Part shown: in pieces, positions 8,853-44,118 of the stretch
Layout of the letters: each line of letters opens with the position of its first letter
Position numbering within the stretch: position 1 is the stretch's first letter
Assembly (NCBI RefSeq): GCF_001641335.1
Contig: NZ_LVEM01000001.1
Span: forward strand, 656,580 to 720,579
Source: Bradyrhizobium stylosanthis
Lineage (GTDB): Bacteria; Pseudomonadota; Alphaproteobacteria; Rhizobiales; Xanthobacteraceae
Direction: 5' to 3'
Length of the DNA: 64,000 nucleotides
The notes under the pieces: model-generated
Database searches by the model: none
What the model saw: only the letters and a program-made list of their open reading frames with translations
Told to the model about the DNA's origin: nothing
Made by a program: the position numbers and the translations under genes

Positions 8853-9116
8853 ATGAAAGCGCAAGCCTTGGTGGCCAGAAATATCCGGCGACTGCGCGTT
8901 GGCCAGGGACTTTCGCAGGAGGCCCTTGCGGTCGACGCGGGAATCGACAGAACCTATGTCAGCCGTCTCGAGCGCGGGCTTGAAAACCCATCGGTGGCAG
9001 TGCTTGAGAAGTTGGCGGTTGCGCTGAAGGCATCCATCCCTGATCTATTTGCTGTCCCTGTGAAGGGAGACCTGCCGCCGCGTCCGCTTAGGGCAGGGCG
9101 ACGGCCAAGGAACTAA
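8853..9116 (+). CDS. XRE-family helix-turn-helix regulator
   Basis: An 87-residue protein that is nearly all one Cro/C1-type helix-turn-helix domain: VARNIRRLRVGQGLSQEALA (residues 6-25), recognition helix region GIDRTYVSRLERGLENPS, then VAVLEKLAVALKASIPDLF. This layout (LR-x5-LSQ-x2-LA, Y-x-S-x-x-E-x-G, and a terminal L-A-x-A-L) is standard for small XRE repressors of islands and phages. It probably controls its own promoter and perhaps the divergent gene at 8131-8601. A short basic tail (RPLRAGRRPRN) follows. Confidence 0.85.
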   Translation: MKAQALVARNIRRLRVGQGLSQEALAVDAGIDRTYVSRLERGLENPSVAVLEKLAVALKASIPDLFAVPVKGDLPPRPLRAGRRPRN

Positions 9117-24054: not shown

Positions 24055-26385
24055 TCACGACGCTTTTCGAAGCTCGCGTGCGGCAGCGACCATGTTGACG
24101 AGCGCCGGACGGACTTCCTCCCATTTGCGCGTCTTCAGGCCGCAATCGGGATTGATCCAGAGCTGCGAGTCCGACAGCCGCTTCCGGGCCAGCGTGATGA
24201 GGTCCTTCATCTCGTTGGTTTCGGGAACGCGCGGCGAGTGGATGTCGTAGACGCCGGGGCCGATGTCGTTCGGATATTTGAAACCGGTGAACGCATCGAG
24301 CAACTCCATCTTTGATCGCGACGTCTCGATCGAGATGACATCGGCATCCATCGCCGCAATCGCGTCGATGATGGCGTTGAACTCGGAGTAGCACATGTGG
24401 GTGTGGATCTGCGTGGCATCGAGAACGCCGGTCGAGCAGATGCGGAAGCTTTCCACGGCCCAGTCGAGATAGGTCTTCCACTCAGAGTGACGCAGCGGCA
24501 GGCCCTCGCGAAGTGCGGCTTCGTCGATCTGGATCATGGTCGCGCCGGCCTTTTCGAGGTCGGTGACTTCGTCGCGGATCGCGAGCGCGATCTGTCGGCA
24601 GGCCTCGCTGCGCGGAAGATCGTCGCGAACGAATGACCAGTTCAGGATTGTCACCGGACCCGTGAGCATCGCCTTCATCGGCTTCTTGGTCAGCGATTGC
24701 GAATAGCGCCACCACTCGACCGCCATCGGCTTCGGTCGCGAGACGTCGCCGAACAGGATCGGTGGACGCACGTAGCGCGAGCCGTAGGACTGCACCCAGC
24801 CATATTGGGTGAAGACGAAGCCGGAGAGCTGCTCGCCGAAATACTGGACCATATCATTGCGCTCGAATTCGCCGTGGACGAGCACGTCGAGCCCGATCTC
24901 CTCTTGCCAGCGCACGGTGCGGGCCGTCTCCTCCCTGAGAAACTGCTCGTACTGCGCATCGGTCAGCTTGCCCTTGGCGTGCGCAGCGCGGGCGTTGCGG
25001 ACGTCGGCAGTCTGCGGAAACGAGCCGATCGTCGTCGTCGGGAACGCCGGCAGGTCGAAACGCTTGCGCTGGATCTCCGCGCGGCTTGCAAAGGCGCTGG
25101 TGCGACGGCGCATGGCATCGTCGATCGCCGCCATGCGCTTGGCAACCGCCGCGTTGTGGATCTTGGGTGAGGTCTGGCGGGCCTTGGCAGCCTTGTCCGA
25201 GGCGGCGAGGGTATCCGCGATGCCTGCGTCACCAGCGAGAGCCCTCGCCAACGTGGAGAGCTCCCCGATCTTCTGTACCGAGAAGGCAAGCCAGCTCCTC
25301 ACATCGGGGTCGAGACCGGTTTCGAGTTCGAGATCGATTGGCGTATGCAGCAGTGAGCAAGAGGGGGCGATCTGCACGCGGGCCGCGCCGAGCCTGGCAA
25401 TGACCGGCTTGTAGTGCTCGAGGAGCGCCGACAGGTTCGAGCGCCAGACGTTGCGGCCATCGATGACGCCGAGCGAGATCACGAGATCGGCGCGGGCGCC
25501 GGATTCGAACTTGCCAAGTTGCTGCGGCGCGCGGATCAAGTCGACGTGCAATCCGGCGACGGGCAAGGCGAGGGCGGTCGTGAGGTTGTCGCCGATCGCG
25601 CCGAAATAGGTCGCGAGCATGATCTTGATGCTGGGGACTTCCTTGGAGAAGTAGGCATAGGCGCGCTGAAGTGCACCGCGCTCGGCTTCGCTAAGGTCAA
25701 GCACCAGACAGGGCTCATCGATCTGAACCCATTCTGCACCACGCTTGGCCAGTTCCTGCAGAACCTCGACATAAACAGGCAGGAGTGCATCGAGCAGCGA
25801 AACCGGATCAAACCCTGCATCATGGCTCTTGCCGAGCTTGAGGAAGGTGACGGGACCAACCAGCACGGGGCGGGTCTGATAACCTAGCGCCTTCGCCTCG
25901 TCGTATTCCTCGATCGCCTTGCGTGAGGAGAGCTTGAAGGTCTGTCCTTTGTGAAATTCAGGAACCATGTAGTGGTAGTTGGTGTCGAACCACTTGGTCA
26001 TTTCCTGCGCAGTCGCGCCGTGACCGTGATGGGCATGACCGCAGCTTGCATCTTGAGTGTCGCCCTGTGAACCGCGCGCCATCGCGAAGTAAGTCTTGAG
26101 CGAGACCGGGCCGCCCTTCCAGCCATAGGCGTCGGGGATGGCGCCGACCATGACGCTGGTGTCGAGCACTTGATCGTAGAGCGAGAATTCGTTCGACGGA
26201 ATGATGGTTGCGCCAAGAGATTTCTGGCGTGCCCAGTTGGCGGCGCGGAGCCCGGCCGCGGTTTCGAGGAGCTGTTTCTCGCTGATCTTGCCTGCCCAGA
26301 AGCCTTCGAGCGCGAGCTTGAGTTCGCGGCGCGGCCCGATGCGGGGCGTGCCGAGTGTTGCGACTGGAAGTGAAAGAGAAGTCAT
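24055..26385 (-). CDS. metE: Cobalamin-independent methionine synthase MetE
   Basis: A 776-residue enzyme that transfers a methyl group from methyl-tetrahydrofolate polyglutamate to homocysteine, without B12. The N-terminal half begins 'LGTPRIGPRRELKLALEGFW'. The catalytic half contains 'FPTTTIGSFPQTADVRNARA', 'VHGEFERNDMVQYFGEQLSG' and the zinc ligands in IHTHMCYSEF (His and Cys), the ISIETSRS Glu and the Cys of WINPDCGLKTR. ATG 26385 is chosen because the homologous start MTSLSLPVATLG begins there. A short insert with HAHHGHG near residue 120 is unusual. A cobalamin riboswitch sits about 115 nt upstream, so expression should fall when B12 is present. Confidence 0.96.
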   Translation of the reverse strand: MTSLSLPVATLGTPRIGPRRELKLALEGFWAGKISEKQLLETAAGLRAANWARQKSLGATIIPSNEFSLYDQVLDTSVMVGAIPDAYGWKGGPVSLKTYFAMARGSQGDTQDASCGHAHHGHGATAQEMTKWFDTNYHYMVPEFHKGQTFKLSSRKAIEEYDEAKALGYQTRPVLVGPVTFLKLGKSHDAGFDPVSLLDALLPVYVEVLQELAKRGAEWVQIDEPCLVLDLSEAERGALQRAYAYFSKEVPSIKIMLATYFGAIGDNLTTALALPVAGLHVDLIRAPQQLGKFESGARADLVISLGVIDGRNVWRSNLSALLEHYKPVIARLGAARVQIAPSCSLLHTPIDLELETGLDPDVRSWLAFSVQKIGELSTLARALAGDAGIADTLAASDKAAKARQTSPKIHNAAVAKRMAAIDDAMRRRTSAFASRAEIQRKRFDLPAFPTTTIGSFPQTADVRNARAAHAKGKLTDAQYEQFLREETARTVRWQEEIGLDVLVHGEFERNDMVQYFGEQLSGFVFTQYGWVQSYGSRYVRPPILFGDVSRPKPMAVEWWRYSQSLTKKPMKAMLTGPVTILNWSFVRDDLPRSEACRQIALAIRDEVTDLEKAGATMIQIDEAALREGLPLRHSEWKTYLDWAVESFRICSTGVLDATQIHTHMCYSEFNAIIDAIAAMDADVISIETSRSKMELLDAFTGFKYPNDIGPGVYDIHSPRVPETNEMKDLITLARKRLSDSQLWINPDCGLKTRKWEEVRPALVNMVAAARELRKAS

Positions 26386-26500
26386 AGCTTTAACCCCATT
26401 GTGTTGGGGCAAAAGGCCATGGCGGACGCTGGCAGGGCAGCCGTGGATGCGGCAGCTGCTTGGCGTACCACCGGGACACCCCGCCCGTGGACGATTATGT

Positions 26501-26703
26501 TGTCGGGGCAGGTCTCCTGGCTCGCGGGTCATCGCCTGCATCCTGGCCTTCCCGAAGCATGTGCTTCAGTGACACTTTTGGATGCGGGCTCACCGCTTAC
26601 AGTTGCGGGGGCAGCGCCGGCATTGCATCAGTCCGAACGGACCGGGAGCGCACCGGCTTCCCTCTTAGCTCCGGATCAAGTGGGACCCGGAGAACCTCGA
26701 CGT
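26501..26703 (-). promoter_or_regulatory. Cobalamin riboswitch upstream of metE
   Basis: On the minus strand the order is AAGAGGGAAGCCGGTG, then GCTGCCCCCGCAACTGTAAG, then GGGAAGGCC and finally GACCCGCGAGCCAGGAGACC. These are the conserved blocks of an adenosylcobalamin-type riboswitch, including the B12 box, in the correct order and spacing. It lies between prpB (stop at 26748) and metE. Confidence 0.93.
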
Positions 26704-26747
26704 CTCCGATTAGCTGCAACGGTGGGGTTCCGTCAACCTCCCGCCGT

Positions 26748-27671
26748 TCACTTGCGCTGTGGCATACCTGATGGAACGATTGTCTGAACGATCGAAGAAT
26801 CCAAAGCTTCGTAATCGTGTAGTCCGATTGTCGCGTAGAGCTCCGCGCGCGTCTGCATACGATCGACGAGCTTATGCGTGCCGCCATCACGCGAAATTGC
26901 AGCATAAAGTTCTGCCTGCGCCTTGTTGGCGACGCGCAACGACGACACGGGCCAGATCACCATTGCGTAGCCCATCGCCTCGAACTCGGCGGCTGTGAAG
27001 AACGGGGTCTTTCCAAATTCGGTCATATTGGCGAGCAAAGGCACGCCCGGCATGCGCTGGGCAAAGGCGCGGAACATCTCGGCGGTGTTGAGCGCTTCGG
27101 GGAAGATCGCGTCAGCGCCCGCTTCCACGTAGAGTTTGGCACGCGCAACCGCGCCGTCGAGGCCCTCGCTCGCGGCAGCATCGGTCCTGGCGATGATCAC
27201 AAGATTGCGACGGGCTTTAGCCGCGGCCGCCACCTTGGCCGCCATGTCGTGCGCATCGGCAATCTTCTTGTCGTTCAGATGCCCGCACTTCTTTGGCAGG
27301 ATCTGGTCTTCAAGGTGAAGCGCGGCCGCGCCGGCGTCTTCAAACACGCGCGTGGCATGCATGACGTTGAGGGCCTCGCCGTAACCGGTGTCGGCATCGA
27401 CGAGAAGGGGCAGGCCTGATGCGCGGACGATCTGGCGGACGAAGAAGGCAACTTCATCCACGGTGATGATGCCGAGATCGGGCAGGCCCATCGACGCCGT
27501 CATAGCTGCGCCCGACAGATAAAGCCCCTCGAAGTCAGCCGCCTTGGCCTGGAGCGCTGCCATGCCGTTGTGGGCACCGGGAAGCTTCAAGATGCCGGGC
27601 TGCTTCAAGAGCTCGCGGAAGCGGAGACCCGCGGGCTCCTGCGGCAGATCGGCGGCAACGAGATAAGGCAT
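26748..27671 (-). CDS. prpB: Methylisocitrate lyase PrpB
   Basis: A 307-residue enzyme of the isocitrate lyase/PEP mutase superfamily. It cleaves 2-methylisocitrate to pyruvate and succinate, the last step of the methylcitrate cycle. Visible signatures: 'PGAHNGMAALQAKAADFEGL', LPLLVDADTGYGEALNV, 'EDQILPKKCGHLNDKK' (KKCGH is the catalytic loop) and the metal-site region 'IIARTDAAASEGLDGAVARA'. ATG 27671 begins MPYLVAADLP. It lies 11 nt after prpC, so the two are one operon. Confidence 0.93.
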   Translation of the reverse strand: MPYLVAADLPQEPAGLRFRELLKQPGILKLPGAHNGMAALQAKAADFEGLYLSGAAMTASMGLPDLGIITVDEVAFFVRQIVRASGLPLLVDADTGYGEALNVMHATRVFEDAGAAALHLEDQILPKKCGHLNDKKIADAHDMAAKVAAAAKARRNLVIIARTDAAASEGLDGAVARAKLYVEAGADAIFPEALNTAEMFRAFAQRMPGVPLLANMTEFGKTPFFTAAEFEAMGYAMVIWPVSSLRVANKAQAELYAAISRDGGTHKLVDRMQTRAELYATIGLHDYEALDSSIVQTIVPSGMPQRK

Positions 27672-27682
27672 CTGGCAGTTCC

Positions 27683-28864
27683 TCAGGCGGCGCGGACCGA
27701 CGAACGCAATCCGTTGCGCTGTTCGAGCGGCACGAATTTCAGGTTCTCCGGGCCCACATAATTGGCCGACGGCCGGATGATTTTGTTGTCGATACGCTGC
27801 TCGATGATGTGCGCAGCCCATCCCGACGTGCGGGCGATCACGAACAGCGGCGTAAACATCGGCGTCGGCACGCCCATCATGTGATAGGACACCGCGCTGA
27901 ACCAGTCGAGATTAGCGAACATCTTTTTGGTTTCCGCCATCACGGCTTCGATCCGGTCGGCGGTCTCGAACATCTTCATCGCGCCGGCCTCGCGCGACAG
28001 ACGGCGCGCGACCTCCTTGATCACCTTGTTGCGGGGATCGGCGATCGTGTAGACGGGGTGGCCGAACCCGATCACGACTTCCTTTGCGGCGACGCGGCGG
28101 CGGATGTCGGCGTCGGCTTCATCGATATCGGCGTAACGCTTCTGCACCTCGAAGGCGACCTCGTTGGCGCCGCCATGCTTCGGCCCGCGTAGCGCACCGA
28201 TTGCTCCCGTGATGGCCGAATACATGTCGGCGCCGGTGCCGGCGATCGACCGGGCGGTGAAGGTGGAGGCGTTGAACTCGTGCTCGGCATAGAGGTTAAG
28301 CGACGTATGCATCGCGCGGACGTGGGAGTCCGATGCCTTGCGGCCGTGCCGCAGATGCAGGAAGTGCCCGCCAATGTTGTCGTCATCGGTCTCCACCTCG
28401 ACGCGGCGGCCGTTCTGGGAGAAATGATGCCAGTAGAGCAGCATCGAACCGAGTGACGCCATCAGGCGATCGGCGATGTCGCGGGCGCCGGGATGATTGT
28501 GGTCGTGGGCTTCCGGCAGCACGCAGCCGAGCGTCGAGACACCGCTGCGCATGACATCCATCGGATGCGCCGCCGCAGGAAGGGCTTCCAGCGCTGCCTT
28601 TACAGCGTTGGGTAAGCCGCGCAGGCCCTTCAGCTTGGACTTGTAGGCAGCAAGCTCAGTCGGCGTCGGTAAACTGCCGTGCACAAGCAGATGGGCGATC
28701 TCCTCGAACTCGCAGGTCTCTGCTACATCGAGGATGTCGTAGCCGCGATAGTGCAGATCGTTGCCGGTGCGGCCGACGGTGCAGAGCGCGGTGTTGCCGG
28801 CGACGATGCCCGACAGCGCGACCGATTTTTTGGGCGCCGGCTTTGAAGACACTTCGTTCGTCAT
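27683..28864 (-). CDS. prpC: 2-Methylcitrate synthase PrpC
   Basis: A 393-residue citrate-synthase-fold enzyme condensing propionyl-CoA with oxaloacetate. The signatures of the methylcitrate branch are '[20 protein letters not shown]', '[17 protein letters not shown]' (first catalytic His), '[20 protein letters not shown]' (second His) and '[16 protein letters not shown]' (catalytic Asp). The length matches PrpC rather than the longer citrate synthase GltA. It lies between prpB and prpD in the same direction. Confidence 0.94.
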
Positions 28865-28906
28865 GATGCCAATCCCTTGATTCCGAGAAAGCTTGCGTTC
28901 GCCGCC

Positions 28907-30424
28907 TTAGCGGCTGGACCAATCGAAGATGCCCGCCGATCCCTTCGCGCCGAGCTGCAATGAATCGACGGTGAAGGTGAGGCCGGAGAGGTCGCCGGCC
29001 GTCAGTTCTGGCAGGCGTTCGACCAAGCCGAGCAAGCGATCCTGCTCGGCCGGCGCGATGACACCATCGGCGAGGCTGCGGAACTTCGCGACATATTGCG
29101 GCCGGGCGAATGGGCGTGCGCCGAGCGGATGCGCATCCGCCACCGCAAGCTCGTCGCTGATGGTCGAGCCGCCCTTGAGCGTGACCACCACGCGTCCGCC
29201 GAACGCCTTCTGCTTGGGATCGTGGCTGTGATAGCGCTGGGTCCAGGCGGGATCTTCGACCGTGGAGATCTTGTGCCACAGCGCGACCGTCTCCGGCCGC
29301 GCAGCGCGTTCCGGCGCGTAGGACTTCTGGTGGTGCCAGCCGCCGTCTTCGAGGGCGACGGCGAAGATGTACATGATGGAATGATCCAGCGTCTCGCGGC
29401 TGGCCTTCGGGTCCATCTTCTGCGGATCGTTGGCGCCGGTGCCGATTACGTAGTGGGTGTGATGGCTGGTGTGGATCACGATGCTCTCGACTTTGGAGAG
29501 ATCACCGATCTTCGGTCCCATGCGTCGGGCGAGGTCGATCAGGGCCTGGCTCTGGTACTCCGCCGAATGCTCCTTGGTGTAGGTGTCGAGGATGGCGCGC
29601 TTCGGCTCGCCCTTCTCGGGCAAGGGCACGACGTACTGCGCCTTCGGGCCCGACAGCAGCCAGGCGATGAAGCCATCTTCGCCTTCCCACGCGGGCGAGG
29701 GAGCACCTTCGCCGCGCATGACGCGATCCACGGCCTCGATCGCCATCTTGCCGGCAAAGGCCGGCGCATAGGCTTTCCAGCTCGAGATTTCGCCCTTGCG
29801 CGACTGGCGCGTGGTGGTGGTGACGTGCAGCGCCTGCTGCACGGCCTGGTAGGTCGTCTCGATCGGCAGGCGCAGCGCTGTGCCGATGCCGGCGGCGGCG
29901 GACGGGCCGAGATGGGCGATATGGTCGATCTTGTGTTCGTGCAGGCAGATGCCCTTCACCAGATTGACCTGGATCTCATAGCCGGTCGCAAGGCCTCGGA
30001 TCAGCGCGGCACCGTCAAGGCCGCAGTGCTGGGCCACCGCCAGGATCGGCGGAATGTTGTCGCCGGGGTGCGAATAGTCGGCAGCCAGGAACGTGTCGTG
30101 AAAGTCGAGCTCGCGAACCGCAACACCGTTGGCCCAGGCGGCCCATTCCGGCGAGATGCGTTGTGCCTGAGGCAGCCCGAACACGGTCGCGCCAGGCTTA
30201 AACGGATGCGAGACGGCCTGAGCCCGCGCGCTGGCAACGGAACGACGCGCGACGGATGCCGCGGCAACGGCGGCGTTGTCGATGATGCGGTTGCCGATCA
30301 TCTCGATCACGGCAGGCTCGACCGCGACGGGATCGGAGGCGACCTCGGCGATCTTCCAGGCGAGCTGGTCCGTCCGCGTCAGATTCTCGGAGGATTTGTA
30401 GGTGCGGACGTGGTGCGATTTCAC
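28907..30424 (-). CDS. prpD: 2-Methylcitrate dehydratase PrpD
   Basis: An MmgE/PrpD-family protein of about 505 residues that dehydrates 2-methylcitrate to 2-methyl-cis-aconitate. Typical regions: '[19 protein letters not shown]', '[20 protein letters not shown]', '[20 protein letters not shown]', '[20 protein letters not shown]' and '[14 protein letters not shown]'. GTG 30424 is taken as start because GAAGGA lies 8 nt upstream; a TTG at 30430 is the longer option. It follows the thioesterase gene by 12 nt. Confidence 0.92.
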
Positions 30425-30436
30425 GATCAATATCCT

Positions 30437-30847
30437 TCAGGCGTGATTGGAAGAAGCCGGATCGACCGGCGTCGGCTTTCCAGTCGCGTCGACCGCGACC
30501 ATTTCGAACGAGCCCCGTATGGCGACGCGGCGAGAGCCTGTCGTCAGCGCTTCGGCAACGACTTCGACCGCGACAGTCATTGATGAACGGCCGACCCGCT
30601 CGACATGAGCAGTCAGCTCAACGAGTTCGCCGACTCGAACGGGCTCGTGGAATTGCACCTTGTCCGAAGTCGCCATCACCACCGCGCAACGGTCGCGTCG
30701 GGTGGCCGCGACAAACGCGGCCTTGCCCATAAGGCTCAGCGCATTGCCGCCGAACAGCGTTCCGTAATGGTTGGCCTGTTCGGGGAAGACGACCTCGACG
30801 AAGCGTGTCGGCTCGTTTTGTCCGGTAGCTTTGAGGGCGGCCTGCAT
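30437..30847 (-). CDS. Acyl-CoA thioesterase, hotdog fold
   Basis: A 136-residue YciA/BFIT-type thioesterase: VEVVFPEQANHYGTLFGGNA (residues about 17-36, the acyl-CoA hotdog signature with the GG turn), LMGKAAFVAATRRDRC, 'VMATSDKVQFHEPVRVGELV' and 'RVAIRGSFEMVAVDATGKP'. It is the first gene of the prp operon here, so a plausible role is release of propionyl-CoA or a related short acyl-CoA to prevent CoA trapping (inference). It is divergent from the prpR-like regulator and shares its operator region. Confidence 0.85.
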   Translation of the reverse strand: MQAALKATGQNEPTRFVEVVFPEQANHYGTLFGGNALSLMGKAAFVAATRRDRCAVVMATSDKVQFHEPVRVGELVELTAHVERVGRSSMTVAVEVVAEALTTGSRRVAIRGSFEMVAVDATGKPTPVDPASSNHA

Positions 30848-30865
30848 GGAGCGATATCCGATGAC

Positions 30866-30978
30866 CCTTGCAAGGCGGGTCCGTTATTCGCAATATCTGC
30901 AAGGTTAAAACTTGCGTATAGTACTGAAAAAGCAAAGCTTTGTGAAAGTCGAGACTGTTATTTTGCAAAGTTTGCGAA
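30866..30978. promoter_or_regulatory. Operator array between prp operon and its regulator
   Basis: Four TTGCAA/GCAAA-type elements occur in 113 nt. They are CCTTGCAAGG (30866-30875), GCAAG-7 nt-CTTGC (30899-30915), CAAAGCTTTG (30933-30942) and TTTTGCAAAGTTTGCGAA (30961-30978). RamB/PrpR-type regulators bind TTTGCAAA-like sites, so this is a likely shared operator for both divergent promoters. Confidence 0.65.
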
Positions 30979-30996
30979 GTCGGTGTGGAGTTTCAG

Positions 30997-32418
30997 ATGA
31001 AGAAAGCATTCATGGGCGTACGCCTGAAGCGCCTGCGCGAAGAGCGCAGATTGACGCAGCAGGCGCTCGCCTCGGCAATCGGAATCTCACTGAGCTATCT
31101 CAATCAGCTCGAGAACAATCAGCGGCCACTCACCATCGCCGTGCTGCTCAAGCTCAACGCCGCCTTCGGCGTCGATGTTCAGTTGTTCTCGGAGGACGAC
31201 GAGGCCCGGCTCGTCGCCGATTTGCGGGAGGCGCTGTCCGATCCCGAAATCGGAGGGACGATCTCGTCGGCCGAATTACGCGAACTCGCAACCAACATGC
31301 CCGCGCTGGGCAGGGCTCTCGTCAGCATCAATCGTCGCTATCGGCAGGCGATCGAGCAGAGTGCCGCGCTCGCGGCCCGGCTTGGAGAGGATCGGCAGGC
31401 GGAGACGGCGATCCTGCCGTCGACCGCGTACGAAGAGGTGCGTGATTTCTTCTATGCGCGCCACAACTACATCGCTGAGCTTGATGAAGCTGCCGAACGT
31501 CTTGCACAGCAGCTTGCGCCATCCGACGCAGTCACTCCGGTTGTTCTCACTGACCATCTCCGTGCCAAATTCGACGTCACGGTCCTGATCGGTAACGGGG
31601 CTGACGATGTCCATCGCCGCTACGACCCGCAGAACAGGACCCTGCATCTTTCGCGCAGGCTTGAACCAGGGCAGCGCGCCTTTCAGCTCGCAACCCAGAT
31701 CGCGATGCTCGGCCTCGACCGCGAGCTCAGTGCGCTCGTCGATGGAGCAGGATTTGCCAATCAGGAGACGCGCGGCCTCGCGCGCATCGGGCTTGCTAAT
31801 TATTTCGCGGGCGCACTGATCATGCCCTACGGGCGTTTCCTGGCAGAGGTCAAGACGCAGCGCTACGACATCGATATGCTCGGTGAAGTTTTCGGGGTCG
31901 GCTTCGAAACGATCTGCCATCGCCTTAGCACGCTGCAGCGGCCATCGGCCCGTGGCGTGCCGTTCTTCTTCATCCGCGTCGACCGCGCCGGCAACATTTC
32001 GAAACGTCAGTCGGCGACGGATTTTCACTTCTCGCGGATCGGCGGCACGTGCCCGCTTTGGAATGTCTACGAGGCGTTTGCTTCTCCAGGCCGCATCGTG
32101 ACTCAGTTTGCCCGCATGCCAGACGAGCGAGCTTATCTCTGGATCGCCCGGACCGTGTCTCACAGAAGCGGCGGCTACGAGTCACTAAGCAAGACCTTCG
32201 CCGTGGCCCTGGGGTGCGACATCAGGCATGCAGGTGAGCTCGTCTATTCACGAGGATTGGACGTTCACGATCCTGCGTCAGCAGTCCCCATTGGCATGGG
32301 TTGCAAGGTGTGCCAACGTATCCATTGTCCGCAACGTGCTTTTCCCCCTGTCGGGCGTTCACTGATGATTGACGAGAGACAGTCATTCTTTTCGCCATAT
32401 GCCGCGTCCAAACCCTGA
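30997..32418 (+). CDS. prpR: Short-chain fatty acyl regulator of RamB/PrpR (ScfR) type
   Basis: A 473-residue regulator. An N-terminal XRE helix-turn-helix (VRLKRLREERRLTQQALASA, then SYLNQLENNQRPLT; residues 7-60) is followed by an IrrE-peptidase-like region (about 150-290, without a clear HExxH) and a C-terminal DUF2083-type domain. That domain includes FHFSRIGGTCPLWNVYEAF and the Cys cluster 'CKVCQRIHCPQRAF'. Homologues sense short-chain acyl-CoA, possibly through an Fe-S site at those Cys, and control methylcitrate genes. ATG 30997 follows GGAG. It is divergent from the thioesterase-prpDCB operon, with TTGCAA palindromes between. Confidence 0.85.
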   Translation: MKKAFMGVRLKRLREERRLTQQALASAIGISLSYLNQLENNQRPLTIAVLLKLNAAFGVDVQLFSEDDEARLVADLREALSDPEIGGTISSAELRELATNMPALGRALVSINRRYRQAIEQSAALAARLGEDRQAETAILPSTAYEEVRDFFYARHNYIAELDEAAERLAQQLAPSDAVTPVVLTDHLRAKFDVTVLIGNGADDVHRRYDPQNRTLHLSRRLEPGQRAFQLATQIAMLGLDRELSALVDGAGFANQETRGLARIGLANYFAGALIMPYGRFLAEVKTQRYDIDMLGEVFGVGFETICHRLSTLQRPSARGVPFFFIRVDRAGNISKRQSATDFHFSRIGGTCPLWNVYEAFASPGRIVTQFARMPDERAYLWIARTVSHRSGGYESLSKTFAVALGCDIRHAGELVYSRGLDVHDPASAVPIGMGCKVCQRIHCPQRAFPPVGRSLMIDERQSFFSPYAASKP

Positions 32419-32423
32419 GACGC

Positions 32424-32912
32424 ATGCACGAAGATTCTGCCCAAACCCGCTATCTGGATACGTCTGACGCAGCCGCGTGTCGCGTGGGCTTCGTTCCTTC
32501 AACACATTTGACCGCGGGCAGCACGAACAAGGCACACCAGGCAATTCGTCTCGTGAAATCGACGTTTCGTGGCGAGTTCAAATGCCTTGTCACTCAAGTA
32601 GAAGCTGGCATCATTATCGAGTGCCCGGAGGCGACCGAGTGCGCAATCCTTAATTTGTGCATTGTCGTCGAACAAAGATTGGAGCGTCTGAAGCAAGAGC
32701 CGCTCGCTGCCAAGATGGTCGAAGAGATTCTCGCGGTCTCAAGCGCCGAACTTCGTCGTTGGTCAAAGGACGGTCGCATTCCGACCAGTGGCCGAGCCTA
32801 TTTCAGCCAAGGCAGGAAGCAGGTTGGGTTGTTTCTCTATTCGCCCGAGGTCATTCGCGGACTGTCGTCGCGCCCGGACCAAATCGCGCAATGGCGCAAT
32901 CAGGATCGCTAG
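32424..32912 (+). CDS. Hypothetical protein with MerR/excisionase-like C-terminus
   Basis: A 162-residue protein starting 5 nt after the prpR-like stop, so probably co-transcribed. The N-terminal 90 residues are unrecognised. The last 60 (EEILAVSSAELRRWSKDGRI, then PTSGRAYFSQGRKQVGLFLY and SPEVIRGL) have the pattern of a winged-helix MerR/excisionase DNA-binding domain: helix, a short RIP.SG wing, an aromatic Y-S-P and a final helix. DNA binding is inferred from that pattern. The target is unknown. Confidence 0.55.
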   Translation: MHEDSAQTRYLDTSDAAACRVGFVPSTHLTAGSTNKAHQAIRLVKSTFRGEFKCLVTQVEAGIIIECPEATECAILNLCIVVEQRLERLKQEPLAAKMVEEILAVSSAELRRWSKDGRIPTSGRAYFSQGRKQVGLFLYSPEVIRGLSSRPDQIAQWRNQDR

Positions 32913-33159
32913 CCACAGCCTCAGCATTAAAAAAAGAATCTTGCCAGCGCGCCTGAGTGGCGCGACTCAGAGTGGTGAGAGTCGTGCGCGCGCGTTTCGA
33001 ACAAGTTTCCCGTTAAATCCCGTATGAGACCTGATTGCACGGCCGTCCCGAATCGCCGGATGTCGGTGGAAGCCTGTGAAATTCCCACATTCCACAAGGA
33101 ACCAGGCCACAGAGCCGCAACGAATCGTTGACACCGGCTCGCGAATATCACCACATATA

Positions 33160-33360
33160 GGCGTCACGGTTCCGCTGGATCGCAAGATTTAGTGGCTAAG
33201 AGGGAAGCCGGTGAACCTCGCCTTTGGTGAGGAATTCCGGCGCTGCCCCCGCAACTGTCAGCAGCGAGCTGCTTCCGTACAAGCGTCACTGATGCGTTCG
33301 CGCATTGGGAAGACGGGAAGCGAGCGACGACCTGCGAGCCAGGAGACCTGCCGTGACGAT
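33160..33360 (+). promoter_or_regulatory. Cobalamin riboswitch upstream of nrdAB
   Basis: It is framed by a P1 stem, CGTCACGG (33162-33169) with CCGTGACG (33351-33358). Inside are AAGAGGGAAGCCGGTGAA, then GGCGCTGCCCCCGCAACTGT and GCGAGCCAGGAGACCTG, the conserved cobalamin-riboswitch blocks. It ends 130 nt before the nrdA start. Confidence 0.93.
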
Positions 33361-33490
33361 CTGAACGTCCACGGGCGGGGTGTCCGGCGGTCGCTTGCAT
33401 GCACCGTCCGGCACTTTGCTGCCGGCGTTTCTGCGGCGTCCTTTCCAAAAGCCCCGTTCAAACACAACGCGCGCATCACGGGGCCGATTG

Positions 33491-36394
<2,904 letters not shown>

Positions 36395-36404
36395 GGAGAT
36401 GACG

Positions 36405-37562
36405 ATGCTCGATTGGTCTGACACCGAAACCACCACAGCGGTCGCTCCTGCGGCCGCGACCCTCACGACGGCACTGCGTCCGCAGACCCAGTTCAAGCTC
36501 GAGCCGGTCGATCCGACTGGCCTCGGGGCGATCGACCGCGCCGGCGGCCGCGTCTCCGTCGACGAGAAGCGGATGATCAACTGCCGCGCCGACGTCAACC
36601 AGCTGCTGCCGCTGAAATACAAATGGGCCTGGGAGAAATATCTCTCCGGCTGCAACAATCACTGGATGCCGACCGAAGTCTCGATGCAGGCCGACATCGC
36701 ACTGTGGAAGTCGCGGGACGGCCTGACAGAGGACGAGCGTCGCGCCATCAAGCGCAACCTCGGCTTCTTCGCCGCCTCGGAATCGCTCGTCGCCAACAAC
36801 ATCGTGCTGGCGATCTACCGTCACCTCACCAACCCGGAGTGCCGACAGTATCTGCTGCGGCAGGCCTTCGAGGAGGCGGTGCACACCCACACCTTCCAAT
36901 ACATCGTGGAGAGCCTCGGCCTCGATGAGGGCGAGCTGTTCAACATGTACCGCGAGGTGCCCTCGATCACCGACAAGGCGGCCTGGGCACTCAAGCACAC
37001 CCAGCATCTGGACGATTCGTCGTTCGAGACCGGAACGCCTGACAACGACCGCGCCTTCCTGCGCGATCTCGTGGCGTTCTATGTCGTGTTCGAAGGCATG
37101 TGGTTCTACACGGGGTTCGCGCAGATCCTGTCGCTTGGCCGCCGCAACAAGATGGTCGGCATCGCCGAGCAGTATCAATACATTCTGCGCGACGAGAGCA
37201 TTCATCTGAACTTCGGCATCGACGTGATCAACCAGATCAAGATCGAGAACCCGCATCTGTGGACCGCCGAATACCAGGACCAGATCCGGGGCATGATCCG
37301 CGAGGCGGCAGAACTCGAAGCCGCCTATGGTCGGGACACCATGCCGCGCGGCTTCCTCGGCCTCAACGCGGCGCTGTGCGAGCAGTACATGCACTTCATC
37401 GCTAACCGCCGCTGTGCCCAGATCGGCCTCGCGCCGGTCTTTGCGGATGTCGAGAACCCGTTCCCGTGGATGTCGGAGGCGATGGACCTGAAGAAGGAGA
37501 AGAACTTCTTCGAGACCCGCGTCATCGAGTATCAGAACGGTGGTGTGCTGAGCTGGGATTGA
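36405..37562 (+). CDS. nrdB: Ribonucleotide reductase small subunit, class Ic type (Mn/Fe) NrdB
   Basis: A 385-residue metal subunit. Metal ligands are E126 (FFAASESLV), E157 and H160 ([12 protein letters not shown]), E230 (VVFEGMW), and E264 and H267 (RDESIHLNF). The residue seven places after E157, where the radical Tyr sits in class Ia enzymes (E-x2-H-x3-Y), is F164, and the first ligand is Glu, not Asp. Both are the hallmarks of the class Ic enzyme of Chlamydia trachomatis, which uses a Mn(IV)/Fe(III) centre instead of a Tyr radical. All ligand spacings match those I recall for the chlamydial protein. The C-terminus [15 protein letters not shown] also fits. ATG 36405 is preferred for its GAGGAG; ATG 36399 is in frame. 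Confidence 0.93.
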
Positions 37563-37626: not shown

Positions 37627-38081
37627 TCATTGAATGAGTACGTAACCCGATTCCGACTGGTTCAATTGCCTCGGGTGCGCGGTCCTACTGCCTAGCTGAA
37701 GCATCCAATGCCCTGCGGTTCGCCGGAGCTCTGCCTCTTGATCGTAGGGCTTGTTGGCGTCGAAAGACACTTTCACCTTGATATGAGTGTCATCTTCCCA
37801 AGCAACGAGCTCCCAGCTCTCGTACTGCTTGGCTCGATACTTGAATTCCAATTTGGGTGGTCGGTCTCTAGAGACCAAACTGCAATATCGTATTTGCGTG
37901 CGCAGGCGTCGTCTCGATCTATCGAGAGCAAATATTTCGCATTCGGCGACATAAGCGGAACTTCACGCATCACGATCTCGCTGCCTGTAGGCGACTGAGC
38001 CGGGTCAATTTGATCCGCTGCCCGGTTGGTCAACAGTGGCGCGCCGAGAACAAGAACCAATGCACAACGATGCACAAACAT
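37627..38081 (-). pseudogene. Secreted protein of unknown function, one frameshift
   Basis: The N-terminal frame from ATG 38081 (MFVHRCALVLVLGAPLLTNR) is a signal peptide followed by 'MSPNAKYLLSIDRDDACARK' and YDIAVWSLETD. The continuation in another frame is PPKLEFKYRAKQYESWELVA, WEDDTHIKVKVSFDANKPYD and LRRTAGHWMLQLGSR. Restoring one C in the CC at about 37860 (minus-strand GACCACCC to GACCCACCC) gives one 151-residue protein. The family is not known to me. A read error is as likely as a mutation. Confidence 0.6.
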
Positions 38082-38209
38082 GGGTGAGAACCTAATGTAT
38101 AGGCTGCGCTGCCCCTCTGAACTGCAAGCGTCGGAGTTGTCGCGAAGGGCTGCGCTTTTGCGATGAGACGGTCTGTATCGGGCTCTCAGTGGACCACGCA
38201 GCGTCTGAG

Positions 38210-38602
38210 CTAAGGCGCCGCTGTCTTCAGATTGACCGACTTGCTTTGCATCGTCGAGACATCCATGTACTTCCATTCCACGAGAGCTGTCTGGTTGTTG
38301 AGATCCTCGAACAAAATAGCCTCGCTGGCTCCAACGGACGACTCATTTCCATTGATCCAAAGCAACCAATAACAGTTCGCTGTAGCTCCGTCGGTCGTCC
38401 CGTCAATGCTATCGATCTGCGCGCCGTAGATCGAACGATACTCAACGCGAAATGTGAAGTTGCTCGGGTTCATTGCCTCACCAATGATCATCGCTTGAAG
38501 GACGGTGATTCCGGCAAACCAAGGCACGTCAGGTAGTACTTGAGTTGGATTTGGGTTGGTCGGATCTGCGTAGATTTTGATCTGAACGATATTGGCTGCC
38601 AC
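38210..38602 (-). CDS. DUF4430 / transcobalamin-like domain protein, candidate
   Basis: A 130-residue protein from GTG 38602 behind GGAGGATCGCT (VAANIVQIKIYADPTNPNPT). The order 'WFAGITVLQAMIIGEA', 'FTFRVEYRSIYGAQIDSIDG', NCYWLLWINGNESSVG and ALVEWKYMDV follows the DUF4430 pattern: a 'tVl.Al' helix, a 'yG..I.si.G' strand, a 'yWl.wvNG' turn and a final 'W.Y'. That domain forms the C-terminal half of animal transcobalamins. No signal peptide is present. It sits back to back with the B12-riboswitch-controlled receptor cluster. Domain assignment is by eye and needs a profile search. Confidence 0.5.
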   Translation of the reverse strand: MAANIVQIKIYADPTNPNPTQVLPDVPWFAGITVLQAMIIGEAMNPSNFTFRVEYRSIYGAQIDSIDGTTDGATANCYWLLWINGNESSVGASEAILFEDLNNQTALVEWKYMDVSTMQSKSVNLKTAAP

Positions 38603-38931
38603 AGCGATCCTCCATAAATTGAAAGCCAATTCTCGTGGTTGTTTTAGAGTAGTATGGCAACTCAAGGCGGTGTCCGCAAGGCTGATCGCTTTCTCCCGCT
38701 TGTTGACCTAATTGTCGACGACCGCAGACTGCAAAAAGGCACGCCGCGTGCTCCCATTCGTGACCACGTTCAAGCGGCGTCCGCCGGTGGTCGCTGCCGT
38801 CGTTCTTTGATCCCTTCTACATATGGGGATTGCAAGACATGAAACCTGCAGCGCCAAGTCGCAGGGGGCCTACGTCGGATAGCGCGCTGCGGCAGGCAAC
38901 CCATGTTGACAGTGGTTTCTGGATAAACTTA
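38603..38931. other. Divergent intergenic stretch before third riboswitch
   Basis: About 330 nt. A 62-codon plus-strand frame at 38654 has no recognisable features and a poor context. This region should hold the promoters of the DUF4430-like gene and of the riboswitch transcript. Confidence 0.4.
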
Positions 38932-39125
38932 TGGTGACTGCGACGGTCCTCCTTCGGGAGTTTAATAGGGAATGCGGTGCGGAGTTTTGCTCCTAAGCCG
39001 CTGCTGCCCCCGCAACTGTAAGCGGCGAGCCTGCTGATCACTGGCCACTGGGTTTTCGGACCTGGGAAGGCGATCTGAAGGCGACGACCCGCGAGCCAGG
39101 AGACCTACCGTCAGTCGTGGTCACG
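38932..39125 (+). promoter_or_regulatory. Cobalamin riboswitch upstream of TonB receptor cluster
   Basis: It carries TTTAATAGGGAATGCGGTG, then GCTGCCCCCGCAACTGTAAG, CACTGGG, CTGGGAAGGCG and 'CGACCCGCGAGCCAGGAGAC', the full set of cobalamin-riboswitch blocks. Outer arms GACTGCGACGG and CCGTCAGTC can pair. It lies about 200 nt before the receptor start. Confidence 0.92.
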
Positions 39126-39322
39126 AGCGAAACGCGTCGGACGGGGTGAGCCGAAGCGAGATCATCGAGCTGTTTGGCGGGTCACGTTGCCGTGGGGGCT
39201 CGTACGGTTTTGCCACTCAGGAAGCTGCCGTAGGTCGTTGCAGGTGTCGTGCGCGGTGATGCACGGCTCGCGCTTCTGCGCGTGCCGTGTATGGCCGATC
39301 AATCGCGCGTGAGGGGGTTGTT

Positions 39323-41669
39323 TTGTCCAGACTTCGTTCGAGTCTTCTTGCCCGTACAGGGCGGTCGAAAATTGAAGTGAGCGTGGCGGCTTGTGCTGTG
39401 GTGGTTTTGGCTGCCGGTGCCACCGCTAAGGCTCAGCGGGTGCCACGTGACACGGGATTGCCTCCGGTCGTGGTCCAGCCTACGGAGCCGGCAACCCGAC
39501 AACCGGCGTCACAGAGCGCGAGCGGCACCAATGCGCCGCGTAGAGCAGCGCGACGATCGCGTCCAACGTCGGCGCAGGCGCCGGCATCAGCACCGGCGAA
39601 GCCCTCGGTAGACAGCGGCAATGTCAGCCAAACCCGCGATGGCGTCGACGGTTATGTCGCCCATGGGACCGAAGCCGGCAGCAAAGTTGCAACGCCGCTG
39701 CTACAATTGCCGCGGTCGGTATCCACCGTGACGCGCGAAGAAATGGCGGACCGAGACGCCCAGAGCGTGCGAGAGGCTTTGCAATACACCGCCAGTGTCG
39801 GCACTTATTATCGAGAAGGGCAGTTTACCCGAGATTACGGTTATATCCGCGGGTTTCAGGGACTGCAGTTCGTCGATGGGCTTCGGCTGAATGTCAACAA
39901 CTACGGCCTGGAGCCCTATGGGTTCGAGCGCATCGATGTTTTGAAGGGACCCGCCGCGACCTTGTACGGGCAGGGTAGTCCCGGCGGCCTGTGGGATCTC
40001 ACCAGCAAGCGTCCAACCGATCAAGCTTTCGGTGAGGCTCTCGTGCGTTTCGGAGTGCACAACACGGCCGAAGGTGCGTTCGATGTCGGCGGCCCGGTGA
40101 CGCAGGATCATTCGCTACTCTATCGGGTTGTGGGACTCGGCCGGATCGGTGACGGCCAGATCGATTTCACCAGCAATGACCGCGCCTATATTGCGCCATC
40201 CTTCACTTGGCGGATCAATGAGGACACCACTCTCACCATTCTGGCTGCCTATCAATACGATCCTCACCTGACCGTGCTGCAGCCGCTGCCGTACGCGGGA
40301 TCGGTCGTGCCGGGCCCGAACGGCCAGTTCGTCTCTCGCAACCTCTTCATGGGAGAGCCGAGCTACCATGATACATCAATCAAACAGGCGCGTATCGGCT
40401 ATGAGTTCAAACACCGGTTCAACGATATTTTCTCGTTCCAGCAAAATTTCTACTATCAGAATATCGATATCAATCTGAACGAAGTGCAGGGCAACCCGAC
40501 TACGCCCGTTACGACGACGATGCCGCGCATAGCTGCGCACCAGACGTTCCAGATCGACATGTACCAGATGGATAATCGGCTGAAGGCCGATTTTGCGATG
40601 GGCCCGCTATTCCATCACGTCGTGTTCGGTGGCGACTATTCTGCCACGCCCAACGTGCAGGGGACGGGTACTGGGACAGCAACCGCACTCAATTTGTATA
40701 ACCCGTCTATGGACAGCCTTTCGTGAGTTCGCCCACGATTACGACGCTGCGCTATCAGGATCAGTGGCAGGCCGGGGCCTATATTCAAGACCGTGTTGAA
40801 CTAGGGGGGGGCTCAACGTGTTGCTCGGCGCGCGTTACGATCAGCTCGAGCAGGATCAGAAGACACGCAGCCTCAATACTGCGACAGGTATCTTCTCTAA
40901 TCCGGCTTGGACATTCGCACCGGACCATGGGTTCACCTACAATGGAGGCCTGATCTACAATTTCGCCAATGGCATCGCGCCCTACGCTAGCTACTCGCAG
41001 ACATTCACACCAACTGCGGGAACAGATTTCTTTGGACGCGCTTTCGTTCCAGTGACCGGCGATCAGAAGGAGGTTGGCGTCAAATACATGCCGCCAGGCT
41101 ATGATATTCTTATGTCCGCGGCCGTGTTCGACATCACGCAGTACAACGTGCTGACGCGCGACCTCGCCGCTGTACATACCGGCTTCTCGGTGCAGACTAG
41201 CTCGGTCGAGAGCCAGGGTGGCGAGCTTGAGATCAAGACCACGCATCTCTACGGATTCAATATCAGCGCCGCTTACACTTACCTGGATGCAAAAGTGATC
41301 GCGACAAACACCGCGGGCGGGCTCGGCAAGCATCCGGTCGGAATTCCCATGAATTCGGCCTCGCTGTGGACGACCTACCGGTTTGCCGGCGGCGAACTCG
41401 CAGGCCTCACGCTCGGCGGTGGCGTGCGTTGGGTCGGCGATCAACCCGTCGATGCCCTCAACACACTGCCGGTGCCTTCCTTCACGCTCTACGACCTCAC
41501 CGCCCGTTACGAGCTTGGCGCGCGTTTCCCGACGCTGAAAAATTGGGATGTCGCGTTGAATGTCAAAAATCTGCTCGATACACGGTATGTCGGGTCCTGC
41601 GATGACGCCCAAGACTGTTACTATGGTCCAGGTCGCAACATTACGGGGACACTGCGTGCGCGCTGGTAG
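39323..41669 (+). pseudogene. TonB-dependent outer-membrane receptor, two single-base frameshifts
   Basis: A siderophore-receptor-type protein of 782 residues if repaired. It has a signal peptide (SLLARTGRSKIEVSVAACAV and on to GATAKA), a Pro/Ala-rich linker, then a plug domain: 'LPRSVSTVTREEMADRDAQS', YIRGFQGLQFVDGL and 'GFERIDVLKGPAATLYGQGS'. A 22-strand barrel follows, ending 'NVKNLLDTRYVGSC' and GTLRARW. Break 1 is near 40705, where adding G restores NPVYGQPF. Break 2 is in the G8 tract at 40804-40811, where a ninth G restores LGGGLNVLLGARYD. The start is probably TTG 39323 behind GAGGGGG; GTG 39287 is in frame. The riboswitch suggests cobalamin or a B12-linked substrate; the sequence family suggests a siderophore. 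Confidence 0.8.
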
Positions 41670-41690
41670 CTCATTCCGGACTCAGAGTCC

Positions 41691-42449
41691 GTGACGCCTG
41701 AGAAGGTTTGCGAGGCGATTGATCGATTGGCCGTCGCCGACTACGCGTCGTTCGGCGGGCGCCTTGTGACTTTGCAAGACCCGAGGCCGGGCGTGCCGTC
41801 GGATCGGCTCCTGGATGTGGCAATGCGCGAAGCGATCGAGCACCGCTTCGCGCGTCGCTTTGCGACAGAATTTGATGTCCGTTCGGTACAGTCGATCTGG
41901 ATGAAGTGGTATCTGAACGCCTTCATCCCGCCCGTTCTCATGGCGGATATCCTGCTCGGTCAATCGATTTCGGTCGATCTACCCGATCTCAGCTTCATCA
42001 TGGCAGATGATGGACGTGTAGCGGCGGTCAAGATCGCGAGCACACGTGACAGTACCGGAGAGGAGCCGTTTCATCGGCTCCGGCCGTTGATATTCGACCA
42101 CTTCGCGCCCTTGATTGAGATGTGGTGCGACCGGACCGATGTCACTGCACGCGTGTTCTGGAGCAATGTTGGCAATACTTTCGAGGCGATGCTGCGCAGG
42201 ATCGAGGCGGTTTCGGGCGCGTCGGAACGACTTTCGGAGGCGCAGCGTCTGCTCTCGGTGGTGGTCACGCCCTGGGGCGTGGCAAATCCGCTATTTGACG
42301 CTGTGTATTACGCGCTTGAAGAGGGCGCGCTGGAGCGGCGACGCCGCGTCTGCTGTCTGCAATACCTTTTGCCCGATCGACGCTTCTGCAAGGCGTGTCC
42401 GATCGAGGAGGCCCGGACCGTACATCGGCAGGAAGGGACCCGATCTTGA
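41691..42449 (+). CDS. FhuF-like [2Fe-2S] ferric reductase
   Basis: A 252-residue protein ending in RRRVCCLQYLLPDRRFCKACP, the C-C-x10-C-x2-C arrangement that binds the [2Fe-2S] cluster in FhuF-type ferric-siderophore reductases. The middle region (SIWMKWYLNAFIPPVLMADI, then TPWGVANPLFDAVYYA) also fits. It starts at GTG 41691, 21 nt after the receptor stop, and its TGA overlaps the TTG start of the ABC gene, so receptor, reductase and transporter form one operon under the cobalamin riboswitch. The usual role is cytoplasmic release of iron from siderophores; reduction of cob(III)alamin is a possible alternative (inference). Confidence 0.8.
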   Translation: MTPEKVCEAIDRLAVADYASFGGRLVTLQDPRPGVPSDRLLDVAMREAIEHRFARRFATEFDVRSVQSIWMKWYLNAFIPPVLMADILLGQSISVDLPDLSFIMADDGRVAAVKIASTRDSTGEEPFHRLRPLIFDHFAPLIEMWCDRTDVTARVFWSNVGNTFEAMLRRIEAVSGASERLSEAQRLLSVVVTPWGVANPLFDAVYYALEEGALERRRRVCCLQYLLPDRRFCKACPIEEARTVHRQEGTRS

Positions 42450-44118
42450 ATCGCATCGCCTCCTTGGGAACCTCGCTACGCGAGGTCGCTCGCATCGCTG
42501 CGCCTTACTTCCGGTCCGAGGAGCGCTGGAGCGCGGCGCTGTTGTTCATCTCGATCATCTTGGCACAGCTCGCTTTGGTCGGCGCTGCTGTTGCAGAGAA
42601 CTACTGGCGTAATGGATTCTTCCAGACCCTTCAGGATAGGGATTGGGACGGGTTTTTAGTCCAGTCCGGGCTCTTCAGCACCATCGGCGTCGTCTTCGTC
42701 CTTGCGACGGTTTATCAGCGGTATCTCACTCAGTGGTTGGCGATCCGTTGGCGTCGGTGGCTCACCACACAATATCTCGGCAAGTGGCTTGACGGTTCAG
42801 TTCACTATCGGGCGGCACTCGCTGGTGGGCCAATTGACAATCCTGACCAGCGCATTGCTGATGACATCAGGCAGTTTATCGACGGCGTAATCTCGCTCAT
42901 CGTGGGCCTGCTCAACGCGATCGCGCGCGTTGTGTCATTTGTCGCTGTGCTGTGGACGCTGTCGAACCTGATGCCGCTGCAGATTTTTGGCGAATCCTAC
43001 GTGATTCCCGGCTATTTGGTGTGGGCGGCGCTAATCTACGCGGCTCTCGGCAGTGTAGTCACCCATCTGATTGGGCGTCACCTCATCGGCATCGAGTTCG
43101 AGCGCGAGCGGCGCGAAGCGAACTTTCGTTTCGCACTCGTGCGCGTGCGGGAGAACGGCGAAGCCATCGCCATGATGCGAGGCGAGGCATCCGAACGAGA
43201 GGATTTGCTTGGCCGCTTTGCGGAGATTGCGCGGAATTGGTACCGATTGATGCGTTGGGAGCAGTTTGTATCGCTCTTCGCCGAGAGCTACAAATATTAC
43301 TCTAGGTATTTTCCCTATTTCGCCCTTGCGCCGCTTTTCTTTGGCGGGCCTATGCAATTGGGGGCGTTCATGCAGGCGGGATCCGCCTTCAACTCGGTGC
43401 ATCAGGCATTCTCGTATTTCATCAGTTCATATGTCCGGATTGCTGAGCTTGCCGCAACCGTTCAGCGTCTGTCTCAGTTTGAGCTAGCAATGCAAGAGTC
43501 CGCATTCGGCAGCGAGGCGATTTCGTCCGCCACGGACCTTGTGGTCGATGCCGAGAACCTCGTGGTGAGCGATGCGGCTGGCCGCGAACTCGCCTTGCTC
43601 AGGCGTCTTGCGCTAGCTCCAGGCGAGACAGCGTTGTTGATCGGGCGATCCGGTGCCGGCAAGACCAGTCTACTGCGGGCCATCGTGGGGATCTGGCCGC
43701 ATGTAAAGGGAAGAGCGGGTCGTCACGCCGAGCCGATCATGGCGCTACCTCAGCGTCCTACATTCCGCTTGGAACGCTTCGACGCGCGCTCAGCTATCCG
43801 GCATCGGCAGGAGCGTACGGCGACGAACGCTTGCGTGAGGTGTTGGCCGCAGTCGGCCTCGGTTATCTGGATCAGTCGCTCGACGTGATGGAGGCCTGGG
43901 ACAGGCGGCTGTCCGAAGGCGAGAAACAACGTCTGTCGCCTGCGCGCGTCCTTCTTGCCGAACCAGATTTGGTTTTGCTGGATGAGGCGACGTCTGCCTT
44001 GGAACGGCCTGCAGAACTTGCCCTGCACAGCCTGCTTCGCGAAAGATTGCCGCGCACGGTCATCGTTGCAGCGGCGCACGACGACCGTTTGCAGGATCGA
44101 AGCGTCGTGATGACTTGA
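42446..44118 (+). pseudogene. SbmA/BacA-like ABC transporter (membrane + ATPase), one frameshift
   Basis: A fused ABC half-transporter of 557 residues if repaired. The membrane domain (residues about 1-330) has the BacA/YddA look (AENYWRNGFFQTLQDRDWDG, 'YLTQWLAIRWRRWLTTQYLG', NPDQRIADDIRQF). The ATPase has Walker A GRSGAGKTSLL, signature LSEGEKQRL and Walker B LVLLDEATSAL. The break is near 43765, where restoring one C (TTCC to TTCCC) gives PTFPLGTLRRALSYP. The TTG start overlaps the FhuF-like stop behind AGGAAGG. Relatives such as mycobacterial Rv1819c import cobalamin, so B12 import fits the riboswitch; peptide import is the other family role. Confidence 0.75.

Follow-up and report, generated by a model that had tools for sequence, protein, structure and literature searches.

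The region considered here lies within a stretch of 64,000 nucleotides (hereafter, the window) from Bradyrhizobium stylosanthis, contig NZ_LVEM01000001.1, positions 656,580 to 720,579. Three cobalamin riboswitches occur there within 12.6 kb: ahead of metE, ahead of nrdAB, and ahead of a divergent operon. Next to nrdAB, on the minus strand, is a small gene (38210–38602) encoding a transcobalamin-beta-like (DUF4430-related) protein of 130 residues, which stands alone and has no evident signal peptide. Its GTG start is preceded, at a distance of 6 bases, by the Shine-Dalgarno sequence GGAGG (38609–38613, minus strand). A preliminary description had given the frame, its length, its start codon, and a strong ribosome site, all exactly, without naming the strand; the four motifs that it listed (tVLQA, YGAQIDSIDG, YWLLWINGN, and EWKYMDV) are present in that order. 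The evidence assembled below suggests that this protein may bind a corrinoid within the cell.

Two close relatives were identified. The first, 75% identical to the window protein, is encoded by another genome of the same genus (G141); the second, 61% identical, by the Hyphomicrobiales metagenome-assembled genome JAFAUQ010000120.1 (locus L048), and the latter protein is the one listed for G354. Over a 354-base core, the window and G141 genes differ at 101 nucleotides, distributed over codon positions 1, 2, and 3 as 22, 14, and 65; the nonsynonymous rate (dN) is 0.16, and the synonymous rate (dS) lies outside the range of the method. A chance open frame is ruled out by this codon-position pattern and by conservation in the relatives, which together indicate that 38210–38602 is a real gene under purifying selection. 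The Pfam scan of the protein revealed no second domain, including no DNA-binding part, and scans against PHROGs and NCBIfam returned nothing usable. A promoter scan found a single site, on the opposite strand, which is about the number expected by chance.

Against the Pfam DUF4430 model (PF14478), the window protein scores 19.1 bits (E 0.0019), below the curated cut-off of 23.8, and so is not filed under this family by its own score. The G141 relative falls just short of the same cut-off (22.9 bits) and the L048 relative exceeds it (34.0 bits). When a profile of the three close sequences was compared with the PDB, the first of 177,635 was the beta domain of human haptocorrin (4kki; E 0.067), followed by an unrelated structural protein (E 0.14). 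An alignment of 11 sequences (A3) gave haptocorrin at E 0.0074, two intrinsic factor sequences at 0.057–0.058, and a lectin at 0.56. Taken singly, the window protein has no match in the PDB, and the matches of the L048 relative are limited to SMG1 kinase and one structural protein (E 0.06–0.12).

Structural comparison points in the same direction. A first AlphaFold2 model, made from two sequences, had a mean predicted local distance difference test score (pLDDT) of 48.9 and was too poor for structure search. A second model, of the L048 relative, reached a mean pLDDT of 62 and a predicted template modeling score (pTM) of 0.62; its alignment rows were the L048 relative, the window protein, and a second, weakly similar protein from L048. 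(A helix present in the first model is absent from the second.) Foldseek ranked transcobalamin (7qbg) fourth, at E 0.30, after pilin rows. VIA-align, applied to the top 832 Foldseek chains, placed haptocorrin first (Z 5.6) and R. gnavus 3u7z second (Z 5.5), and rows 3–11 consist entirely of chains from transcobalamin and intrinsic factor; rows 1–11 have Z 4.6–5.6, a root-mean-square deviation of 3.6–4.4, 81–87 residues, and 8–16% identity. We take the R. gnavus protein, RUMGNA_00854, to be a DUF4430 (PF14478) protein. By itself this ranking would be thin, and it appears consistent with the sequence evidence; assignment of the fold to the transcobalamin-beta type is well supported. Hence the likeness to DUF4430 and transcobalamin first proposed by eye holds, through the L048 relative and the profile and structural rankings rather than through the score of the window protein.

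The candidate ligand segment is the block formed by residues 55–68, Y-R-S-I-Y-G-A-x-I-D-S-I-D-G, the most conserved stretch in the family: 13 of its 14 positions are invariant in the three close members, compared with 68 of 130 overall (hypergeometric P ~0.001, for a block chosen after inspection). HMMER aligns it with haptocorrin ERS-WGPYITCIQG. By codon count, R56-S57-I58-Y59-G60-A61-Q62 (38417–38437, minus strand) pair, with a one-residue gap, with haptocorrin R-S-W-G-P-Y, taken as residues 357–362. One haptocorrin study names Arg357, Trp359, and Tyr362 as the three bulky beta-domain residues that stabilize its corrinoid complex (PMC4350170). The aligned R, W, and Y were counted at chain positions 380, 382, and 385, and are presumably the same three residues, because their spacing is equal and the offset is a constant 23. 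Y59, at the Trp359 position, is invariant in all three close members; the Tyr362 position is occupied by phenylalanine in L048 and by glutamine in the window protein and G141. Another study assigns the conserved aromatic of this insert a central role in how transcobalamin-type domains bind their ligands (PMC1949818).

The RS(I)YG motif occurs in this block in all three close-family members and in none of the eight other A3 sequences, one of which has a similar short string elsewhere. The candidate hairpin comprises strands 50–57 and 63–69 in the first AlphaFold2 model, and is less distinct in the second, where confidence is below 60. The alpha/alpha toroid of the animal carriers is missing here. 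A separately expressed human transcobalamin beta domain is nonetheless reported to bind both cyanocobalamin and cobinamide in crystals, although its affinity is reduced (PMC5599065); therefore, the missing toroid does not exclude binding.

Hydropathy alone bears out the earlier remark that a signal peptide is lacking: the window protein has no hydrophobic N-terminal segment, nor do the G141 and L048 relatives, which start at the corresponding place. The top 12-residue hydropathy within the first 40 residues is 0.79–2.10 in these three proteins, with peaks inside the domain, versus 2.53–3.01 in six secreted-looking DUF4430 cousins (starts picked by eye). The window protein is probably cytoplasmic. 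That it is exported by an unrecognized route, or from a misassigned start, to act outside the cell like most described DUF4430 proteins, appears highly improbable. An alternative TTG start 21 codons upstream would add a weakly hydrophobic extension (hydropathy 1.74), and a weakly similar protein encoded at L048 (8502–9011) has a hydrophobic N-terminus. However, the window extension is dissimilar to that of G141, and the low values for the close family, set beside those of the comparators, also argue against export.

On one side, the gene is convergent with nrdB (36405–37562, plus strand; named from its place after nrdA and by sequence recognition). The nrdA gene (33380–36394, plus strand) encodes the alpha subunit of a B12-independent type of ribonucleoside-diphosphate reductase (NF005544, 1706.6 bits, cut-off 965; the model for the B12-dependent NrdJ is below its cut-off), and is preceded by a cobalamin riboswitch (33150–33369, plus strand; RF00174, 126.1 bits). 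Farther away, on the minus strand, metE (24055–26394) encodes the B12-independent methionine synthase (NF003556, 1141.3 bits, cut-off 541), its start chosen below a second riboswitch (26490–26714; RF00174, 134.8 bits). Also on this strand, prpC and prpD (27683–30430) specify the methylcitrate cycle, a B12-independent route for propionate (prpC, 700 bits, cut-off 550; prpD, 909.2 bits, below its cut-off of 950). The metE, nrdAB, and prpCD genes each provide a B12-independent equivalent of an enzyme or route that uses B12. With a RamB-like regulator, they make up a cluster of B12-independent alternatives spanning 24055–37562. As the preliminary description had it, the DUF4430 gene stands beside B12-controlled units, with cobalamin riboswitches on both flanking operons.

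In G141, too, the gene faces nrdB convergently, and the nrdAB operon there is led by a cobalamin riboswitch; nrdB is thus the one neighbor that is conserved, in both of the close in-genus copies. The surrounding region is collinear (ramB, thioesterase, and prpD), and the order ramB-orf32424-riboswitch-nrdA-nrdB-DUF4430 is common to both genomes; in G141, additional genes separate ramB from orf32424. The nrdB gene was detected in 34 of 117 sampled genomes, own included. The window gene was not found at E 1e-8 in the longer nrdB stretches from eight genomes beyond G141, nor at the second copy of nrdB in the genome under study. That second nrdAB has its own cobalamin riboswitch (L088, G000 C16), and elsewhere in the same genome is a gene of NrdJ type, above the cut-off for the B12-dependent reductase. 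The stretches taken around nrdAB from eight other genomes of the genus include metE in five cases. In the window, the interval from nrdB to the DUF4430 gene holds small frames (37627–38084) that resemble, by eye, one broken gene.

On the other side, a third cobalamin riboswitch (38927–39126, plus strand; RF00174, 122.9 bits) leads the divergent operon, of which all three genes are on the plus strand. By family scores, the first encodes an FhuA/FoxA-like TonB-dependent receptor (39287–41669), broken into two pieces in this assembly. The second encodes an FhuF siderophore-iron reductase (41691–42449; TIGR03951, 136.7 bits, cut-off 63.85), and the third, also broken, an SbmA/BacA-like ATP-binding cassette transporter (42395–44118; Pfam SbmA_BacA, 129.8 bits, cut-off 24). 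The two interruptions may reflect decay or sequencing error. The first piece of the receptor scores about 240 bits as the FhuA/FoxA siderophore type versus 27 for the TonB-B12 model, all below cut-offs, and identification as a B12 uptake operon was rejected on these family scores. Thus the riboswitch-controlled uptake operon described previously retains its cobalamin riboswitch but looks like a siderophore operon and is not recognizable as one for B12. A nearby CobW-like gene was set aside as well, since it scores instead as ZigA, a zinc metallochaperone, and passes the cut-off of that model.

The same arrangement of riboswitch, receptor, FhuF, and transporter occurs in two genomes (window, 38927–44118; L102, 7051–12260). 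In the second of these, G086, the receptor and transporter genes are uninterrupted, and no DUF4430 gene is present in the 14.5-kb stretch that was read; therefore, adjacency of gene and operon is not conserved there. This FhuF was found in 2 of 146 sampled genomes, own included. Speculatively, the receptor might carry a corrinoid, or B12 scarcity might switch on iron uptake that serves the iron-dependent NrdAB. Our search of the open-licence literature found no paper joining cobalamin riboswitch, siderophore, and FhuF.

The reading that we favor, with a probability of about 0.42, is that the window gene encodes a stand-alone, apparently cytoplasmic transcobalamin-type beta-grasp domain that binds a corrinoid and perhaps has a part in the change to B12-independent enzymes. 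Binding would occur through the nearly invariant segment YRSIYGAxIDSIDG, which corresponds to the inserted beta-hairpin of transcobalamins. With a single domain, binding would be weaker than that of transcobalamin, and weaker binding would suit a protein that reversibly buffers, scavenges, or delivers corrinoid when it is scarce. One might speculate that such buffering or delivery takes place while the cell uses nrdAB, metE, and the methylcitrate cycle. That the ligand is a corrinoid is suggested by the alignment with haptocorrin; a role in the response to B12 scarcity is the least certain step. A more specific version, in which the protein assists the change between a ribonucleotide reductase that needs B12 and one that does not, for example as a corrinoid buffer or chaperone, is doubtful.

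Several observations weigh against this reading. The AlphaFold2 model is weak, with its mean pLDDT of 62, and was made from the L048 relative instead of the window protein. Foldseek alone returned no matches at E <= 0.001 with this model, and VIA-align Z values near 5 are middling: unrelated rows begin at 4.5 (streptokinase, row 12), a small margin. In the candidate segment, R56 matches Arg357 only with the one-residue gap, the ungapped partner being S57; moreover, PMC4350170 presents Arg357 as a feature particular to human haptocorrin. The gene lacks a cobalamin riboswitch of its own, its upstream region shows no RNA fold of note (fold z-score 0.52), and, with flanking genes that are convergent on one side and divergent on the other, it lies outside their operons.

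Distribution of the gene is sporadic, a further point of this kind. Searching 265 genomes of the genus with the window protein yielded three at E < 0.001: its own genome, G141, and the distant G204, whose protein (28% identity; PF14478, 28.8 bits) was retained as a distant DUF4430 protein only. Genus-search matches at E 0.048–1 were left uncounted, except for a probable C-terminal remnant in G246 (E 0.049) situated some 0.6 kb from a tRNA. Wider searches with profile A1, covering 385 genomes of the class and 397 of the order (the two samples overlap, and both count the own genome), added no clear relative; among GTDB genome contigs, the profile found a single metagenome-assembled genome, that of L048. 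Ten of 391 genomes in the taxonomic family have a match to the DUF4430 model, nine of them above cut-off, as does 1 of 219 in a phylum sample, namely the own genome, below cut-off. This stand-alone, probably cytoplasmic domain of the transcobalamin type is rare.

Four other weak matches were rejected as relatives. Those in G021 and elsewhere in the G086 genome contain stops (three in the latter, at E 0.013), and that in G902 is an alignment at E 0.006. The fourth, in G917, is a 27-residue stretch within a 1193-codon frame of a same-class genome of 1.5 Mb; it resembles the hairpin block (SFYGDLIDKIKG...YW; L045, 1501–1680), and may represent chance or a distant domain.

Such a distribution also brings up the idea that this is an accessory gene on mobile DNA, parked by chance in the nrdB intergenic region and unrelated to the B12 regulon. 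Only one other strong match exists in the genus, and no clear further relative in the class and order samples. The G+C content of the gene is 0.506, compared with 0.62–0.64 in nrdAB, and this too counts against a tie to the B12-regulated neighborhood. In G141, a gene of the phage integrase family (by Pfam) is located some 4 kb upstream, and the interval holds what look by eye like recombinase fragments and insertion-sequence genes; the position of the G246 remnant near a tRNA fits as well. Nevertheless, gene order from ramB to the DUF4430 gene is kept in both genomes, and the 75% identity between the two proteins resembles the 71% for ramB, as under shared descent. We regard chance placement as rather unlikely. 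A phage or plasmid origin was rejected, since searches of viral, phage, and plasmid collections turned up no relative of the window protein; profile A1 likewise found none in the viral collection. The L048 protein weakly matched 37 plasmid records, 35 from Enterococcus or Lactococcus and two from Rhizobium; among the matches listed, which do not include the Rhizobium pair, E was 0.07 or worse and coverage at most 36%. The distant G204 protein had no match in the plasmid collection.

Other genomic contexts of the family bear most directly on the ligand. At L048, the close relative has as neighbors cinA, genes for an M20 peptidase and ARPP-1, and nuo genes (the last recognized by eye), and no cobalamin riboswitch occurs within 16.4 kb, nor was any B12 gene recognized nearby. 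Of the two close homologs, then, one (G141) is linked to B12 genes and the other is not; the preliminary description had itself named homologs that lack such a link as counting against it. Directly after the L048 relative, the gene at 8502–9011 encodes the protein with the hydrophobic N-terminus mentioned above (28% identity over 54 residues, no Pfam hit), and the two might act together. Eight further DUF4430 genes came from genomes of the taxonomic family, and longer stretches were taken for seven of them. ModA or ModB is above cut-off in five of these seven stretches and MoaA in one, while the remaining stretch comes from a contig of just 4.7 kb; a cobalamin riboswitch is in none of the seven. 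Therefore, DUF4430 does not equal B12, and a DUF4430 match alone should not be taken to mean B12 binding.

These surroundings lend substance to the main rival explanation: fold and location are the same, but what the domain binds is a protein partner or a small molecule other than a corrinoid, and its place near B12 riboswitches is incidental. The siderophore character of the operon beside the window gene agrees with it. Against it, the most conserved segment of the protein aligns with the corrinoid contacts of haptocorrin, and both close in-genus copies adjoin nrdAB under a cobalamin riboswitch. A ligand other than a corrinoid is, in our estimation, a serious possibility. Among the cousins with modA/modB or moaA (L089, L090, L091, L092, L093, and L094), a gene for the membrane protein DUF6580 adjoins the DUF4430 gene in all four loci tested. 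The two possibly form an accessory pair for molybdate or molybdopterin; we found no paper on DUF6580 in the open-licence literature.

If corrinoid binding proves correct, the window protein would be an intracellular counterpart of the beta domain found in animal B12 carriers. The existence in the cytoplasm of a stand-alone form whose contact position holds an aromatic residue would suggest that this fold handles corrinoids inside cells too, and at 130 residues the protein makes a small test case.

Four known systems invite comparison. The DUF4430 genes beside DUF6580 share the domain and come from related organisms, but their products have a signal-peptide-like N-terminus where scored and lack the RS(I)YG motif in the corresponding block, and their neighbors are molybdate or molybdopterin genes. 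Bacterial DUF4430 proteins such as 3u7z, the second-ranked structure, contain a homologous domain, to which the L048 relative is tied by its 34.0 bits; the window protein differs in having no evident signal peptide and a score of its own below cut-off. Among the open-licence papers found on DUF4430, none addresses bacterial function, to judge from titles and the beginnings of abstracts.

According to Burroughs et al. (2007; PMC1796856), most transcobalamin-type domains are secreted or located at the surface, and the intracellular ones are fused to DNA-binding domains. The SLBB domains joined there to ArsR- or AraC-type helix-turn-helix domains belong to the same clade and share the intracellular location predicted for the window protein, which in contrast is a lone domain with no DNA-binding part apparent to Pfam. 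Closest in sequence profile and structural rank are the beta domains of haptocorrin (TCN1), transcobalamin, and intrinsic factor; the aromatic Y59 of the window protein occupies the position of a corrinoid-contact tryptophan. Unlike these carriers, the window protein is bacterial, lacks the alpha/alpha toroid, and apparently is not secreted.
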